NCBI GenBank assembly: GCA_902612825.1
Contig: CACMET010000007.1
Coordinates: 1 to 64,000 of the forward strand
DNA from: an uncultured Alphaproteobacteria bacterium
Lineage (GTDB): Bacteria > Pseudomonadota > Alphaproteobacteria > HIMB59 > GCA-002718135
Length of the DNA: 64,000 nt
Direction: 5' to 3'
The position numbers were made by a program, and so were the translations under genes. The notes beneath the pieces were generated by a model. That model was not told the origin of the DNA. It did no database searches and was given only the letters and a program-made list of their open reading frames with translations. This document shows positions 45,621-59,933 of the stretch, one piece after another (the stretch's first letter is position 1; each line of letters opens with the position of its first letter).

Positions 45621-46700
45621 TTATTTAAATGCTTGTCCGGAACTATCAAATAATTGGCATCTTCCTGCAGGAAAACCAACTTTTACAGTATCACCAACTT
45701 TAATTTCTGAATGTCCTTCAGTTTCAGCAACTAGTGGCTCTCCATCTTTTTCAAGGTATAGGTAAGTAACGTCACCAAGTTTTTCGACAACAAATACTTT
45801 ACTCTCCCAAGATCCATCTGAATCACCATTTACCACTAAGTGCTCTGGTCGAATACCTAGAGTTACTGAGTCACCCTCTGAGGAGGATGCTGACATTTTT
45901 GAAACTGATATTTTTGACATTCCCATAATATCAACTTCTGTAGCATCAGAACTTTTGCTTAATATCTTACTAGAAATAAAGTTCATCTTTGGTGATCCAA
46001 TAAATCCACCTACGAACATATTATTTGGTCTATCATAAAGTTCGAGCGGGGATCCTTTTTGTGAAACGATACCCGTATCAAGAACAACAATGTCATCAGC
46101 TAAAGTCATTGCTTCTGTCTGATCGTGTGTAACGTAAATCATTGTTGCTTCTAGTTCATTATGAAGTTTTGCTAATTCAACTCTCATTTGAACCCTTAAT
46201 GCAGCATCAAGGTTTGAAAGTGGTTCATCAAATAAGAAAACTTTTGGCTTTCTTGTAATTGCTCTTCCAATAGCAACACGTTGTCTTTGACCACCTGAAA
46301 GTTGTTTTGGCTTTCTTTGAAGATAATCTTCTATTTGAAGAATTCTTGCTGCCTCATTAACTCTTTCATTAATTTCATCTTTTGATCTTTTTTCTAATTT
46401 CAAACCAAAAGCCATGTTATCAAATACAGTCATGTGAGGGTATAAAGCATATGATTGAAACACCATTGCAATATTTCTTTGTTTTGGTGGTAAATCATTA
46501 ACTACTTGACCATCAATTGAAATTGTACCTGAATTTATATCTTCAAGTCCTGCGATCATTCTTAACATAGTTGATTTTCCACAACCACTAGGTCCAACTA
46601 GAACTGTGAACGATTGACTTTTGATATCTAGAGATACGTCTTTAATTACGTGGACGTCTCCAAAATATTTATTAACAGTATTTATATTTATATCTGCCAC
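45621..46700 (-). CDS. aglK: Sugar ABC transporter ATPase (AglK/UgpC/MalK type)
   Basis: This 359-residue ATPase has Walker A GPSGCGKST, Q-loop VFQSYALYPHMTVFDN, signature LSGGQRQRVAIGRAI, Walker B VFLFDEPLSNLD and a C-terminal TOBE domain. GTG 46700 is chosen as start because AGGAGG lies 5 nt upstream and it gives the family start ADININTVNKYFG; the longer frame from 46751 adds an unrelated 17-residue tail. It is the only MalK-type sugar ATPase in the window and is separated by 102 bp from aglG, so it may have its own promoter and serve other permeases too. Confidence 0.92.
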   Translation of the reverse strand: MADININTVNKYFGDVHVIKDVSLDIKSQSFTVLVGPSGCGKSTMLRMIAGLEDINSGTISIDGQVVNDLPPKQRNIAMVFQSYALYPHMTVFDNMAFGLKLEKRSKDEINERVNEAARILQIEDYLQRKPKQLSGGQRQRVAIGRAITRKPKVFLFDEPLSNLDAALRVQMRVELAKLHNELEATMIYVTHDQTEAMTLADDIVVLDTGIVSQKGSPLELYDRPNNMFVGGFIGSPKMNFISSKILSKSSDATEVDIMGMSKISVSKMSASSSEGDSVTLGIRPEHLVVNGDSDGSWESKVFVVEKLGDVTYLYLEKDGEPLVAETEGHSEIKVGDTVKVGFPAGRCQLFDSSGQAFK

Positions 46701-52590: not shown

Positions 52591-53310
52591 ATGAAAATCA
52601 ATAAAAAAAGTTTTGAGGAAAATGGCTATTTAGTGCTTCCCGATATTATTTCAAAATCTACATTATCTAAGCTCAACAAAAATGCTGATCAAATGATAAG
52701 TGATTTTAAAAAAGGTATTAATAGAAAACAATCAAATAATATTAGAAAAAAGCATGGTGATATCAGTAAAAATGGAAAAATTTTTTTTGGTAACCAGTGC
52801 GAATATTATTCACATATAAATGCATATGCAAAGGGAAAGTTTGTAAAAAATATAGTTTCAAAAATATTGGGAAAGAAAATTTTTTTATTTAATGAACAAC
52901 TGGTAAATAAAAATCCAAACACACCTAGTTCTTTTAGTTGGCATCAAGATTCAGGCTATATTCATTTTAAACATAAACCCTACATATCGGTTTGGCTTGC
53001 CTTAACTGATACAAATGAAAAAAATGGAGCTTTGAGTATTATTCCCACAAATTTAAAAAAAACTAAAAATGCAAAACTACATAGATGGCAAAACAAATCA
53101 AAGGATTTAGGAATCAAAGTTAATGAAAAAAAAGCAATTCAGCTTTGTGTTAGTGCTGGAACATTAATAATTTTTTCAAGTTTAACTCCTCATTCATCTA
53201 GTGCCAATATTACAAAAAAAAATCGGAAAGCATATTTATCTCAATACTCCTCTGAAAATATTATTGATCCTTTCAATGGTATTCAAAGAGGAAGAGCATA
53301 TTTGATGTAA
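52591..53310 (+). CDS. Phytanoyl-CoA dioxygenase (PhyH)-family protein
   Basis: This 239-residue non-heme iron, 2-oxoglutarate-dependent oxygenase has the HxD iron ligands in FSWHQDSGYIHF, the distal His in LTPHSSSANIT and the following arginine (NRKAYLSQYS). The opening FEENGYLVLPDIISKS is the usual PhyH start. Members hydroxylate lipids, betaines such as ectoine, phosphonates and other small molecules. It comes 2 nt before a PanB-like gene and upstream of an ABC importer, so it likely acts on the imported compound; this is inference. Confidence 0.87.
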   Translation: MKINKKSFEENGYLVLPDIISKSTLSKLNKNADQMISDFKKGINRKQSNNIRKKHGDISKNGKIFFGNQCEYYSHINAYAKGKFVKNIVSKILGKKIFLFNEQLVNKNPNTPSSFSWHQDSGYIHFKHKPYISVWLALTDTNEKNGALSIIPTNLKKTKNAKLHRWQNKSKDLGIKVNEKKAIQLCVSAGTLIIFSSLTPHSSSANITKKNRKAYLSQYSSENIIDPFNGIQRGRAYLM

Positions 53311-53312
53311 AT

Positions 53313-54146
53313 ATGAAAAAAATTTATAACTTTGCAGGAAATCTTAGTTATAGAAATTATACCATCAAAGATCTTTTTGATAATAAAGGTAAAAAAAAAC
53401 TATCTCAAATAAATGTAAAAAATGAAGAGGAGACTAACATTGCTCTTGATGCTAAAGTTGATTTATTAATTACAGGTCTTGCTGCGATTAAAAAAGTGAG
53501 ATCAATTGCTAAAAATAATTTTATAACAGTAGCAATACCTTTCACTGAGTTTAAAACGAATGATGAAATTTTAAAGGCATCTTTAGAAGCTCTTAATAAC
53601 GGTGCTGATGCAATCTACACTGCACGATCTCCAAGAGTAGTTGAATATTTGGCAAAAGAGTCAATTCCAGTAATGGCACATTTAGGCTTGGTACCAAGAA
53701 AATCAATTTGGATTGGAGGACTAAGAGGAGTAGGAAAAACCACATCGGAGGCTTTAAAGTTATTTGAAGAATTTAAAACGATGGAAAATGCTGGAGCATT
53801 TGCAGTTGAAGCAGAGGTTATTGCAGATCAAACACTAAAATTTATTTCGGAAAATGTGAATTTAATAACAGTATCTTTAGGATCTGGAAACTACGGTGAT
53901 GTAAATTATTTGTTTATGGATGACATTTGTGGTGAGAATGAACAAATCCCTAGACATGCTTTTAGTTTGGCTAAAATTTATAAATTAAGAGACAAAATTT
54001 ACAGAGAAAAAGTTAAAGCTGTGCATAAATTTAATAAAAAAGCCAAAACAACTAAATTTGTCACATCTCGAAATATAGTAAAGATTAATAATGCTGAGCT
54101 TCAAAAATTTAAAAAAAAGGCCAAATTACTTAATAAATATAATTAA
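53313..54146 (+). CDS. PanB-like (ketopantoate hydroxymethyltransferase-family) protein, divergent
   Basis: This 277-residue TIM-barrel protein shows the PanB-like core: IPVMAHLGLVPR, then a glycine-rich GGLRGVGKTTSEALKLFEEF and ENAGAFAVEAEVIADQTLKFI with the catalytic-region glutamates. The positions where PanB binds magnesium look changed: the usual DMPF is AIPF here and the N-terminal GHDS-type motif is not seen. It is thus probably not the pantothenate enzyme but a related C-C bond lyase or transferase. It is cotranscribed with a PhyH oxygenase and followed, after 72 bp, by a binding-protein gene. Confidence 0.7.
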   Translation: MKKIYNFAGNLSYRNYTIKDLFDNKGKKKLSQINVKNEEETNIALDAKVDLLITGLAAIKKVRSIAKNNFITVAIPFTEFKTNDEILKASLEALNNGADAIYTARSPRVVEYLAKESIPVMAHLGLVPRKSIWIGGLRGVGKTTSEALKLFEEFKTMENAGAFAVEAEVIADQTLKFISENVNLITVSLGSGNYGDVNYLFMDDICGENEQIPRHAFSLAKIYKLRDKIYREKVKAVHKFNKKAKTTKFVTSRNIVKINNAELQKFKKKAKLLNKYN

Positions 54147-54218: not shown

Positions 54219-55559
54219 ATGAAAAAAATACTATTTACTTTTATTTCTTCTATTTTGTTATTTTCTAATTCGGTTTTCAGTATGACACTATGGACTACTG
54301 AAACTCAACCAGGAAGAATGCAAATTCAAGAAGAATTAATTGCAAGATTTACAGCAAAGACTGGAATTGAAGTTAAACTAGTTCCTCAGGAAGAAGATGA
54401 ATTAATTGAAAAAGCTTCTGCTGCTTTTGCTGCTAACAGTTTACCTGATGTAATTTTTAACGCTGCATGCGTTAATTTTTGTGCTTGGGCTTATGATGAA
54501 GGAGTATTCGACTCAGATGCTGCAACAGAAATTGTTAATTCATTAGGAATTGATACATATAGTGCAAAAGGTGTATTAGCTATGTCAGAGGTCGAGCCAG
54601 GAGTATATGCTTCTGTACCTTCAGGTGCATGGCCAAATGCTACTTACTATCGTATGAGCTATTACAATGATAATGGTTTAGCTACACCAACTAATTATGC
54701 AAATATTTTAGCTGGGGCTAAAGCTCTTCATAATCCACCAAATCGTTACGGAGCTATTGTTCCTACTGATGTTGCAGCTGGTTTTATGAGTCAATGGATG
54801 GAAACTTTTGCTATTGCTAATGGATTACACCCAGTAAAAGAAGATGGATCAATTAACTTTGATAAGAAAAAAACTATCGAAATGTTAGAAACTTATAAAG
54901 CTTTAGTTGAAATGTCACCTGAGGGTATCCATCACTGGCAAAATGGTAGAGACTTTTACGCAAGTGATGTTGTTCCATTAACTTTTTGGGCTTCTTATCT
55001 TTTAGATGATATTGCAGGAACAAGAGACAATGTTCCAATTATGGTAGATGACAATCCACAATCTCTAGCATTAGCACAAGATACTAATGTTATAGTAGGT
55101 ATGGCTGGTCCTTCTAATCCAGATGGTGGAACATGGGTTGAAGTTCACAACTTTGGTGTAACTGTTGATGCTAATACTGATGAAGCAGCAGCATTCATCG
55201 AATATGTTATGAACGAAGAGTATGTTACTTGGTTAGGAATGGCTCCTGAAGGTAGTTTCCCTATTAGACCAGGACCAAGTGCTGGTTCAAAAATATTTAT
55301 TGATGAATGGGGTAATTTACCAATTGGAGTAGATAGAAAAATTCCAATAAACCAAATCTATTCAAATGAAATTATTGAATCACTAATTAACGGATTAGCT
55401 GTTGGTACAAGATGGGGGGCTAAAGAAGGTCAACTTCCTGTCGCTGCTAAGTTAGTAAATAGTGGATTAATGAATAGGCTAATGATGGAATATATCAACG
55501 GCGATCGCTCTGCGGAAGATACTGTTGATATGCTAAATTCAGAAGCAGCAAAACTGTAA
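54219..55559 (+). CDS. ABC periplasmic binding protein (sugar type)
   Basis: This 446-residue extracellular binding protein of SBP_bac_1 type has a signal peptide (MKKILFTFISSILLFSNS, cleaved near SVFS) followed by MTLWTTETQPGRMQIQEELI. Other family marks are FAANSLPDVIFNAACVNF and HNFGVTVDANTDEAAAFIEYVM. It has AGGAGG at 54206-54211, seven nt before the ATG. Upstream, TTAGTATTTT occurs twice (54160-54169, 54173-54182) with a 13-bp period. Ligand is unknown; the adjacent oxygenase and PanB-like genes mean it need not be a sugar. Confidence 0.9.
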   Translation: MKKILFTFISSILLFSNSVFSMTLWTTETQPGRMQIQEELIARFTAKTGIEVKLVPQEEDELIEKASAAFAANSLPDVIFNAACVNFCAWAYDEGVFDSDAATEIVNSLGIDTYSAKGVLAMSEVEPGVYASVPSGAWPNATYYRMSYYNDNGLATPTNYANILAGAKALHNPPNRYGAIVPTDVAAGFMSQWMETFAIANGLHPVKEDGSINFDKKKTIEMLETYKALVEMSPEGIHHWQNGRDFYASDVVPLTFWASYLLDDIAGTRDNVPIMVDDNPQSLALAQDTNVIVGMAGPSNPDGGTWVEVHNFGVTVDANTDEAAAFIEYVMNEEYVTWLGMAPEGSFPIRPGPSAGSKIFIDEWGNLPIGVDRKIPINQIYSNEIIESLINGLAVGTRWGAKEGQLPVAAKLVNSGLMNRLMMEYINGDRSAEDTVDMLNSEAAKL

Positions 55560-55577
55560 TTTATATTAATTTATCTT

Positions 55578-55617
55578 AATGGGCTCCAGTTCTTATAAAA
55601 AAAGAATGGGGCCCATT
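55578..55617 (+). other. Strong stem-loop covering the start of the permease gene
   Basis: AATGGGCTCCAGTTCTT (55578-55594) and AAGAATGGGGCCCATT (55602-55617) can form a 16-bp stem with one bulged G and one G-U pair, loop ATAAAAA. It lies 19 nt after the binding-protein stop and includes the permease ATG at 55579 and a second in-frame ATG at 55606. It could protect the upstream message and hold down permease translation. No T tract follows. Confidence 0.7.
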
Positions 55618-56853
55618 GAAAAACAAGGGGTAGTACAAGCTTATACAATGCTTGTCCCAACTGTGGCCATAGTTATGGCCATTGTATTATTTCCACTTAT
55701 TGCTAATTTTTGGATAAGTTTTAAGGATGTTACTGTATCTGATTTAAGAATAGCTGAAATAAAAGTAACCGAAAAATTTCAAAAAAAACCAAAAACAAAA
55801 GGAGATATTTCTAAAGTAGAGTATCGATTTAATAATTTTTCAAAAAGTTCAAATATAAAAAATGTAAACTTCAAAGATATTTTACCTAAAGGTTTAGTAA
55901 TTAAAGAACTACCTAATAACTGTTCTATCTCAGATAATATAATAAACTGTCAATTAGGTGATTTTAAACCAAAAGAAAAAAAGAAACTAAAATTTGAAAC
56001 AATCGCAGAGAATGATTACTTTATTAGTCAGGAAAATCCAAAAGATACTTCACCAATTGTTAAAGGAAAATCAGAAAATAGATTATTAAACCTTGAATTA
56101 AAATTAAAAAATTTTGAAGAAATATTTACTTCACCAAACTTTTGGAAAACAATTAGAATAAGTTTTGCGTATTCTTTATTTTCTGCAATTGGATCGTTAA
56201 CACTTGGTATTTTAGCAGCACAACTACTGATGACCACCTTTATTGGCAGAGGCATTATACGTGGTATTTTTTTATTTCCATATATTGCACCAATTATAGC
56301 CGTTACTATTACTTGGAAAATTTTAACTGATCCTTTTTTTGGAACAATCAATGGAATTCTTACGCAATTACAAATTTTAAATGAGCCTATTAGTTTCTTG
56401 CAAGTAAGAGATATGACAATTAATTTCATAGGTTTTGAATTTAGTTTCCCAGTTGCTTTATCATTTGTTATTTTATTTGAGTCTTGGAGATATTTTCCTT
56501 TAGCGATGATTTTTATCTTAGCAAGATTACAGTCTGTTCCTAAAGAACTTTTTGAAGCTGCTGAAATTGATGGTGCTACACCTTTTCAAAAATTTAGAAG
56601 TATTACATGGCCCTTAATTCTAGGAGTATTATTTGTTTTGTTTCTTCTTAGATTTATTTGGACATTTAATAAATTTGACGACATTTTTTTATTAACTGGA
56701 GGTGCCGCCGGAACTAAAACTTTAACTGTAGATGTTTATGAAACAGGTTTTAATATTGGTAATTTAGGAACTGGAGCGGCAAATGCAGTATTAGTTTTCT
56801 TAATATTAGTTTTCGCTGCAATATTTATAATAAGATTTTCACCGAAAGAATAA
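55579..56853 (+). CDS. ABC permease, MalF type, with DUF11/Ig-like periplasmic insert
   Basis: This 424-residue permease has TM1 at about residues 21-46 and the core helices from about residue 190, with the EAA loop ELFEAAEIDGATPFQKFRS. Between them, residues 51-180 form a large extra-membrane insert. Residues 79-143 read like a DUF11 domain: NVNFKDILPKGLVIKELPNN, a Cys115/Cys124 pair, QLGDFKPKEKKKLKFE, matching the pattern of 'tDtLPaGl...C...C.lG.l.pG....l.'. Core function as a permease is sure; the insert identity is by pattern only. The ATG lies in a strong hairpin; ATG 55606 is an alternative start. Confidence 0.87.
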   Translation: MGSSSYKKRMGPIEKQGVVQAYTMLVPTVAIVMAIVLFPLIANFWISFKDVTVSDLRIAEIKVTEKFQKKPKTKGDISKVEYRFNNFSKSSNIKNVNFKDILPKGLVIKELPNNCSISDNIINCQLGDFKPKEKKKLKFETIAENDYFISQENPKDTSPIVKGKSENRLLNLELKLKNFEEIFTSPNFWKTIRISFAYSLFSAIGSLTLGILAAQLLMTTFIGRGIIRGIFLFPYIAPIIAVTITWKILTDPFFGTINGILTQLQILNEPISFLQVRDMTINFIGFEFSFPVALSFVILFESWRYFPLAMIFILARLQSVPKELFEAAEIDGATPFQKFRSITWPLILGVLFVLFLLRFIWTFNKFDDIFLLTGGAAGTKTLTVDVYETGFNIGNLGTGAANAVLVFLILVFAAIFIIRFSPKE

Positions 56854-56855
56854 GA

Positions 56856-58076
56856 ATGAGCAATAGTCAAAAAATTTTAATTTCTTTAATAATTAGTTCT
56901 TTTTGGGGGTTAATCAGTAATATTGTTTTAGGAGTATTTTTTATTCTTCTTATTGGAAGTACAATTCAATTTAATTATTTTTCTTATATTATTTCATCTT
57001 CAATAATCACATTATTGATTGTTTTTTATGATAGAAAAAGCCTACAAATTTATATTAGTTTATTTATTTTAACTTTTATATTGATCTTAATTTTTACAGG
57101 CCTTTCTCCTTATGGTTTAAATATAAATGAAAATAGTTTTTTGCAGATATTATTTTTATTAATCCAATCATTTATAATATTAATAGGCAATATTATTTGT
57201 CTATCTGGAATCAATAAAATGTCTTTTAATAGATTATTTTTAGAAATTTTATTTATTAGGGTTTTAAAAGGTTTTGGTTTTACTTTCTTCTTAACAATTG
57301 TGTTATTTCCATTTTATGTAATGATTTTAATGAGCTTAAAAACTCATCAATTATTAATTCTTAATCCTCTTGATCTATCAATTGATATTACAAGAGGATT
57401 AAATATGTTTAGAAGTTATATTGAACTATTTACTGATTGGGGATTTGGTTATTACTTACTTAATTCATTAATAGTTTCTTTGTCTTCAATTTTTATTGCT
57501 TTAATTTTTGCAATACCGGGTGCTTATGCAGTTGCGAGATTTAATTTTCCAGGAAAATTATTAATGATTAACTCAATATTATTAATTTATTTAATCCCTA
57601 TGATTACTTTGTTAATTCCTTTGTATTCATTTTTTACATTTATAAATTTAAGAGATTCTTTATTTGGACTTATAATTGTTTATCCTGCAGTTACTATTCC
57701 CGTAGCAATTTATATGTTACAGGGATATTTTCAAACAATACCTCAAGAGCTGGAAGAAGCTGGTTTAGTTGATGGGTTATCAAGAACTGGGGTTATATTA
57801 AAAATTACTTTACCTTTATCACTTCCAGCAATAGCTTCAGTTTCTCTATTTATTTTTATGGTAGCGTGGAATGAATATTTATTTGCATATATGTTTTTAG
57901 ATACTCCAGCTATATTTACACTTCCAAGAGGTTTAGAACAATTAGATGGAACAGAGGTGCCAAGACAGCATTTGATGGCTGGTTCAGTTATTGCAACCGT
58001 ACCTGTGATAGCAGTTTTTTTATGGGCTGAAAGATACTTAACCGGAGGCTTAACTGCAGGAGGAATTAAAGGATAG
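56856..58076 (+). CDS. ABC permease, MalG type, with extra N-terminal membrane domain
   Basis: This 406-residue permease is about 130 residues longer than usual MalG. The core (from about residue 138, FGFTFFLTIVLFPFYVMILMSLK) has six helices, the EAA loop ELEEAGLVDGLSRTGVILKI, and the C-terminal GSVIATVPVIAVFLWAERYLTGGLTAGGIKG. In front of it residues 8-118 form about four further hydrophobic helices with no recognised family. No ATPase gene is in this operon. The stop lies 3 nt from that of the convergent Gfo/Idh gene. Confidence 0.88.
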   Translation: MSNSQKILISLIISSFWGLISNIVLGVFFILLIGSTIQFNYFSYIISSSIITLLIVFYDRKSLQIYISLFILTFILILIFTGLSPYGLNINENSFLQILFLLIQSFIILIGNIICLSGINKMSFNRLFLEILFIRVLKGFGFTFFLTIVLFPFYVMILMSLKTHQLLILNPLDLSIDITRGLNMFRSYIELFTDWGFGYYLLNSLIVSLSSIFIALIFAIPGAYAVARFNFPGKLLMINSILLIYLIPMITLLIPLYSFFTFINLRDSLFGLIIVYPAVTIPVAIYMLQGYFQTIPQELEEAGLVDGLSRTGVILKITLPLSLPAIASVSLFIFMVAWNEYLFAYMFLDTPAIFTLPRGLEQLDGTEVPRQHLMAGSVIATVPVIAVFLWAERYLTGGLTAGGIKG

Positions 58077-58079
58077 TAT

Positions 58080-59150
58080 TTAACTTAGATCTATCCATTC
58101 ATTTTTTTCTGAACTTAAAAAACAACTATCTAAAATTTTTTGAATATCAGCACCTCTTTTGAAATCAGGTTGATCATTTTTACCAGAAATAATTGATGTT
58201 ATAAATCTTTCATAGTTAGAGGGAGTAGGGTCAGTTTTTACAATTTCCCAATCCAAACTTTTTTCATCATTAGGAGAGGTGGCATTTATATCAGTGCATA
58301 TTGAGTAGTAATTTCCCTGAGTTATAGGATCGTCAAATTTCATAGCTACTGCACCTTTGTCACAATATATGTTTAATTCTAATCTATTAACATTACCTGT
58401 TGCAAATCTAGTTGAATTTATTGTTCCTATAGCACCATTATCAAATTCTACCATTGAGATAAAAGAGTCATTAGCATCTAAAACGTATTCATCAATTTTC
58501 TCTCCTTTATCTTTAAAGGTTTTAAGTCGACAATTTATTTTTTTAATATTACCAACTGGATACGATGCAAAATCAAATATATGAACACCAAGATCACCAA
58601 GAACTCCTTTACTGCCATGCTTTTCTGATAATCTCCATAACCATTTTTGTTCCTCTTTCCAATTACCCCAATACTTACATGTTAACCAAGATTGATAATA
58701 ACTAGCATCAACATGTCTGACTTTACCTAATTCATTATTATGCAAAACTTTACTTAAGTTTTGCCAACCAGAGGAATTTCTGTAACTCAGATTAACCATA
58801 TTAATACAGTTTGTATTTGCTGATACTTTGTACATTTCCTCTGCATCTGGATAGTTTTCAGCTAAAGGTTTTTCTGAAAAAATGTGCTTATTTTTATTTA
58901 AAGATTTTAACGCAATTTCTTTGTGAAATGAATCAGGGGTTACATTGCTTATTGCATCAAGTTCACACTTATCAAGCATTTCATCAAAAGATGTGAACGT
59001 TTTATCAATATTATATTCTTTAGCAAAATTTAAGACTCTTTCTTCTATGACATCACAAACTGCAACTATTTCTACATCTTTAATATTTTTAAATGCTGTT
59101 GCATGGGCATTAGCCATCCCTCCAGTACCAACAATTCCTAACTTAATCAT
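58080..59150 (-). CDS. Gfo/Idh/MocA-family oxidoreductase (ThuB-like)
   Basis: This 356-residue protein starts [20 protein letters not shown] (Rossmann motif), has [12 protein letters not shown] for the EKP motif and [16 protein letters not shown] with the active-site Asp/His. It overlaps the thuA-like gene by 4 nt (ATGA). In rhizobia ThuA and the Gfo/Idh protein ThuB together process trehalose and related disaccharides through 3-keto forms; the same pairing here, behind a sugar importer, suggests a similar role. The sugar is unknown. Confidence 0.85.
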
Positions 59151-59933
59151 TTTTTATAATTATGATCTACTTGATAGCCTTTTACTTCAATTGGTTGAAC
59201 AGGATCTTTTCTTTCCATGTTATCAATACCTTTTGCTATTCTGTCTATCCACAAACCAGATGTTTTTTCAGGACAAACCCAATGAATAGAATTTTTAATT
59301 ACTCTTTGAACATCTTTATTATAATAAACAGGATAAGATTCATGTCCTGGTCTGAAATAAAATATTTTTCCATTTCCTCTTTTGTAACAAAGACCAGATC
59401 TAAATACCTCTCCGCCTTCAAACCAACTCACAAAAACTGTTTCATCTGGGGCAGGGACCTGAAAAGGCTCACCATACATTTCGGTCATCTCAATTTCAAA
59501 ATATTCTCCTAAGCCCTCTGCAATAGGATGACCTGGGTTACAAACCCAAACTCTTTCCATTTCACCTCTTTCAGCCCATCTAATATTTGCAGTTGTACCC
59601 ATCATTCGTTTGAAAATTTTAGAATGATGTCCTGAATGTAATACCAGAAGACCCATTCCTTCTAAAACTCTTTGCTGAACTCTATCGACAATTTTATCTT
59701 CAACCAACTTATGAGCTTTATGACCCCACCAAATTAACACATCTGTTTTATCTAATAATTCTTCACTTAAGCCATGATCCTCTTCTTTTAATGTTGCAGT
59801 TTTAATATTAAGACTTTTATCATCAGATAAAAAATTCTTTAATACAACCGTGAATTCCCTTTGGGTAAATTGATTTTACATGTTCATCCTCTTGTTCATG
59901 AACAAATTCATTCCAAATAACTACGTTTACCAT
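59147..59933 (-). pseudogene. thuA: ThuA-family (trehalose utilisation) gene with a frameshift
   Basis: Two frames together encode one complete ThuA-like protein of about 261 residues. The first 36 codons from ATG 59933 (MVNVVIWNEFVHEQEDE ... YPKGIHGC) end at TGA (59823-59825). Dropping one base from the six-base homopolymer at 59829-59834 restores the reading frame, giving [19 protein letters not shown] and then [42 protein letters not shown] and [13 protein letters not shown], all classic ThuA. The downstream part alone could start at GTG 59740 but would lack the N-terminal strand. Frameshift mutation, sequencing/assembly error and programmed slippage are all possible. The ATG lies 2 nt after the permease stop. 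Confidence 0.85.

Follow-up and report, generated by a model that had tools for sequence, protein, structure and literature searches.

The classic example of an additional periplasmic domain on an ABC importer is the P2 region of MalF, which is often seen as a peculiarity of enterobacterial maltose uptake. Domains of the DUF11 and Ig-like kinds usually lie outside the cell, where they bind or act as spacers. The P2 region of MalF directly contacts MalE (PMC3150292), and the interaction spans the whole catalytic cycle (work cited in PMC3150292). What is new here is a MalF-type permease that appears to carry a DUF11-type domain at the P2 position, encoded in a window of 64,000 nucleotides (the whole stretch of DNA analysed) from an uncultured alphaproteobacterium.

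The permease, P1, is encoded on the forward strand at 55579..56853 (424 aa; BPD_transp_1, E 1.1e-9). A BPD_transp_1 core and an EAA loop are both present, as in the CUT1-like, MalF-type class. Profile and PDB sequence matches define a MalF/UgpA/SugA-like core at residues 175-419, the resemblance to MalF, UgpA and SugA starting only at about residue 175. The first transmembrane helix (TM1, about residues 22-45; 55642..55713) is homologous by alignment to TM3 of MalF and TM1 of SugA, with SugA 24-56 corresponding to P1 residues 21-53 in a weak segment of the match, and the AlphaFold model has a helix at residues 12-47. The TM1-TM2 periplasmic loop holds the predicted DUF11-type Ig-like beta-sandwich (about residues 58-171; 55750..56091), assigned by AlphaFold and hhalign; the membrane-proximal segment and the TM2-TM6 core with its EAA-type loop EAAEIDGATPFQKF follow at 56092..56850. 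An earlier note had put the insert at residues 51-180, between TM1 and the core, which corresponds exactly to 55729-56118 in the open reading frame, and the DILPKGL motif, Cys115, Cys124 and LGDFKPKEKKKL that it listed are all found in the translation. Both cysteines (55921..55950) occur in 80 of 80 homologues and lie on neighbouring strands of the model (115-118 and 121-129), so they probably form a disulphide.

In a joint alignment, TM1 of P1 AYTMLVPTVAIVMAIVLFPLIANFWISFKDV pairs with MalF residues 64-94 AWRYVYPGMAGMGLFVLFPLVCTIAIAFTNY. The loop after this helix is 124-125 residues long in P1, 166-167 in MalF and 9-16 in the insert-less paralogues of the same genome, and in SugA about 9 residues separate the same flanks. 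MalF has two additional N-terminal helices (PF20872), so that its TM3-TM4 loop is the TM1-TM2 loop of P1. The insert had at first been placed elsewhere than MalF P2; the alignment puts both in homologous loops and, as aligned, the insert occupies the exact position of MalF P2, a closer parallel than first read.

Full-length P1 was modelled by AlphaFold from an alignment with 47 diverse relatives. In this model the insert is a beta-sandwich of 7+1 strands (residues 61-67, 77-86, 93-101, 106-110, 115-118, 121-129, 134-143 and 160-165), mostly at pLDDT 85-92; modelled alone, it has a mean pLDDT of 87, with 91-95 across its core. An Ig-like fold of residues 75-145 had been set beforehand as a test, and a beta-sandwich is what AlphaFold predicts for the permease alone, giving the insert a predicted Ig-like beta-sandwich fold. 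Its Foldseek matches are beta-sandwich domains too (fibrillar-adhesin CLIPPER, CBM2, integrin and adaptor), alike at the level of the fold with 9-14% identity. The MalF P2 domain was absent from the 50 best Foldseek matches of the isolated insert, and a comparison of PDB sequences with the insert profile gave no match. The likeness to MalF P2 is one of position and general fold, not of structural detail.

The assignment to DUF11, proposed earlier, draws its support from the family and not from the single sequence. DUF11 (PF01345) is the best Pfam match of the window's insert, at about 16.5-16.7 bits and E 0.011, a weak match below the Pfam gathering threshold of 24.6 bits. Among 48 non-redundant inserts, 28 match DUF11 at E<=0.01 (best E 2e-6). 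Every full-length permease tested stays under the cut-off (best 24.3), and this would account for the domain's missing annotation. When a profile of the 48 inserts was compared with an independent alignment of 27 strong, bona fide DUF11 domains, hhalign aligned 100 columns with a probability of 96.7% and E 3.2e-10. The controls, reversed and five times column-shuffled, gave 0.0-0.2%, so the match is more than chance. The insert profile also picks up DUF11 repeat proteins in unrelated genomes, one of these matches falling within a DUF11 domain of Pfam E 5e-20. No other DUF11 copy that could have served as donor was found in the window's own genome. Judged by these profiles, the insert is a relative of DUF11, as distinct from a Pfam-annotated DUF11 domain.

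Among the 80 closest homologous loci in bacterial genomes, the insert is present in all 80 at near-uniform length. These relatives are mostly alphaproteobacteria, with exceptions that include a Deinococcales MAG (L055) and Granulosicoccaceae MAGs, where a binning error is possible. A profile search found insert-bearing permeases in 16 of 398 genomes, all of them Alphaproteobacteria. Across 289 Alphaproteobacteria genomes, matches were either full-length orthologues (E<1e-100) or no stronger than E 3e-42, the value of the best insert-less match, which lies in a 298-residue frame. In a small tree of the TM core, the insert-bearing permeases are split from all insert-less ones with support of 1.000 on a long stem. 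Together, these observations point to a single acquisition of the insert, with no later loss in the sample. The possibility, raised in the earlier note, that every homologue within an already described subfamily has the insert was borne out in its first half (80/80, one clade); as to the second, the open-licence literature yielded nothing relevant on DUF11 in permeases or on a mannosylglycerate ABC importer. The insert is ordinary within its clade, a real and family-wide domain for which that literature gave no description. Three congener genomes (L144, L145 and L146) carry a second, divergent system with the insert, whose P1 and SBP are 46% and 39% identical to those of the window; it has a different neighbourhood, with no GH63 match nearby.

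Docking of the solute-binding protein (SBP) is the likeliest role of the DUF11-type insert, because its position and predicted fold match those of MalF P2, which contacts MalE. The proposed partner is the periplasmic SBP encoded at 54219..55559 on the forward strand (446 aa; SBP_bac_8/SBP_bac_1, Pfam E 4.6e-17). An SBP gene is present in 78 of the 80 loci and stands immediately 5' of P1 in nearly all. No other part of the system diverges as fast as the insert, whose mean distance is 0.565 vs 0.251 for the TM core. Residual distance correlations, calculated from non-independent data points, are 0.25 between insert and SBP, 0.07 between TM core and SBP, and 0.21 between insert and the partner permease, P2. 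In direction they weakly favour docking, but being small and interdependent they do not decide it, and the value for permease P2 nearly equals that for the SBP.

Permease P2 is a MalG-type protein of 406 aa (56856..58076, forward strand) whose match to MalG (E 2.9e-30) covers residues 142-406 only. Its N-terminal extension (56856-57280), about 140 residues long, has about four additional hydrophobic segments by hydropathy. Since permease P2 is about 405-420 aa long in most relatives, the extension is, after the insert, another unusual feature of this transporter that is shared across the clade. This extension speaks for the alternative that survives best, namely that the insert is a structural or assembly element that stabilises the P1-P2 pair, perhaps via the extra helices of permease P2, and makes no contact with the SBP. 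The best-conserved positions of the insert border the membrane (SDLR after TM1 and NILTN..FTL.NF before TM2), in keeping with such a role, and its correlation with permease P2 is close to the SBP value. Nevertheless, the site is that at which P2 of MalF contacts its SBP, and DUF11 and Ig-like domains generally bind or space outside the cell, and we consider a purely structural element unlikely.

We think it improbable, more so than a structural role, that the insert and MalF P2 are true homologues whose sequences have drifted too far apart to be recognised as such, with one ancestral insertion instead of two. The two share a loop and an Ig-like sandwich, and in a fold search the alignment of full-length P1 with MalF runs from end to end, over 475-502 columns. 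Against this, the insert profile reached an hhalign probability of only 0.5% with 16 MalF_P2 domains vs 96.7% with DUF11, a single-sequence comparison with E. coli MalF P2 gave no relationship, and a Pfam search of the window's insert and the 48 family inserts gave no match to MalF_P2 (PF14785). Of 299 genomes sampled from the phylum, 16 have a MalF_P2 match above the cut-off, all of them outside Alphaproteobacteria, and the small tree places MalF outside the insert clade, among insert-less paralogues. By sequence, MalF_P2 and the insert look like separate domains put into the same loop. The independent acquisition suggested earlier is plausible, as no sequence relationship between the insert and MalF P2 is apparent; the different site that went with the suggestion is not upheld. 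Whether two importer lineages independently put unrelated Ig-like SBP-docking domains (MalF_P2 in MalF of the enterobacterial type and DUF11 in the alphaproteobacterial clade) into this loop, making it a recurrent add-on site, we regard as an even bet. That the insert is a CBM-like module that captures glycans or substrate in the periplasm and so raises the local substrate concentration is highly doubtful: CBM2-type cellulose-binding domains are among its better Foldseek matches (TM 0.56-0.61), but these are fold-level only and appear alongside integrin and adaptor sandwiches, no conserved aromatic row was seen in the insert alignment, and a dedicated SBP is already present.

The genes around the transporter bear on its substrate. 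In 49 of the 80 loci the order LacI-type regulator, SBP, P1, P2, GH63 and ATPase is exact, and a GH63 gene is present in 66, several of the others ending at contig edges. The GH63 enzyme of the relatives matches PF22422, a mannosylglycerate-hydrolase-like family, at E 4e-117 and Thermus TTHA0978 (PDB 2z07) at E 7e-115, and scores 363 vs a cut-off of 550 for the NCBIfam glucosylglycerate hydrolase. Given the hydrolase-like gene in the operon, the clade probably imports mannosylglycerate, glucosylglycerate or a small glycoside of a similar kind. No GH63 match was obtained in the window's genome (79% complete) or in 24 relatives. The same negative result holds for 15 congeners; the insert-bearing permease is present in 2 of these. 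The substrate of the window's lineage may differ, given that no hydrolase was found in its genome.

The window's cluster has no hydrolase or ATPase directly 3' of the permeases. UgpC/MalK-like genes at other sites, such as that at 45675-46697 in the window, could provide the ATPase in trans. Directly 5' of the SBP gene, at 52591-54146, are genes for a PhyH-type dioxygenase and a PanB-like protein (ketopantoate hydroxymethyltransferase), which are kept in congeners. On the reverse strand, at 58080-59740, a Gfo/Idh/MocA-like oxidoreductase adjoins a ThuA-like protein, both named by sequence appearance, beside a ribose-type ABC system; the two are a possible 3-keto-glycoside degradation set. Sugar-type importers are dense in this 1.36 Mb genome, with about 20 MalF/MalG-type permease matches, and a broad sugar-transport repertoire has been described for the AEGEAN-169/HIMB59 group (PMC10308909).

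Taken as a whole, the explanation that we favour with moderate confidence is a single entry of a DUF11 domain into the P1 loop, kept since as an SBP-docking arm of a small-glycoside importer. One DUF11-family Ig-like domain would have entered the TM1-TM2 loop of a MalF-type permease in a single event, in the common ancestor of an importer clade that centres on alphaproteobacteria, and would have been retained from then on. The domain would form a rigid periplasmic arm, with the hairpin disulphide as brace, that holds the cognate SBP above the translocation pore as MalF P2 does, and the importer would take up a small glycoside.

If this is true, a marine importer clade of wide distribution has a second, unrelated domain in the loop that holds P2 in MalF, which would make the loop a general docking site, and the DUF11 clade would offer a natural comparison for testing the function of MalF P2. 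A transporter family of ocean bacteria that lacks annotation would also gain a probable class of substrates, the glycosylglycerates or similar glycosides.

Several described systems can be set beside this locus. The mannosylglycerate/glucosylglycerate hydrolases (GH63, PF22422; TTHA0978) have a homologue that shares the operon in most relatives and is undetected in the window's genome. Permeases of the SugA/UgpA type (LpqY-SugABC) provide the best PDB sequence match and share the six-helix core with P1 residues 175-419, but SugA has about 9 residues where P1 has the insert. The insert resembles DUF11, B_ant_repeat and DUF7933 in a profile match that includes the D-LP-GL motif, and its C...C hairpin also occurs in some DUF11 domains. 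DUF11 usually occurs in repeated copies within large surface proteins; here one copy lies within a polytopic transporter. With P2 of E. coli MalF (MalFGK2), the insert has in common the homologous periplasmic loop, a predicted Ig-like fold, a MalF-type subunit and a type I sugar importer; MalF P2 is longer, at about 167 residues vs about 125, and MalF carries its two extra N-terminal helices.
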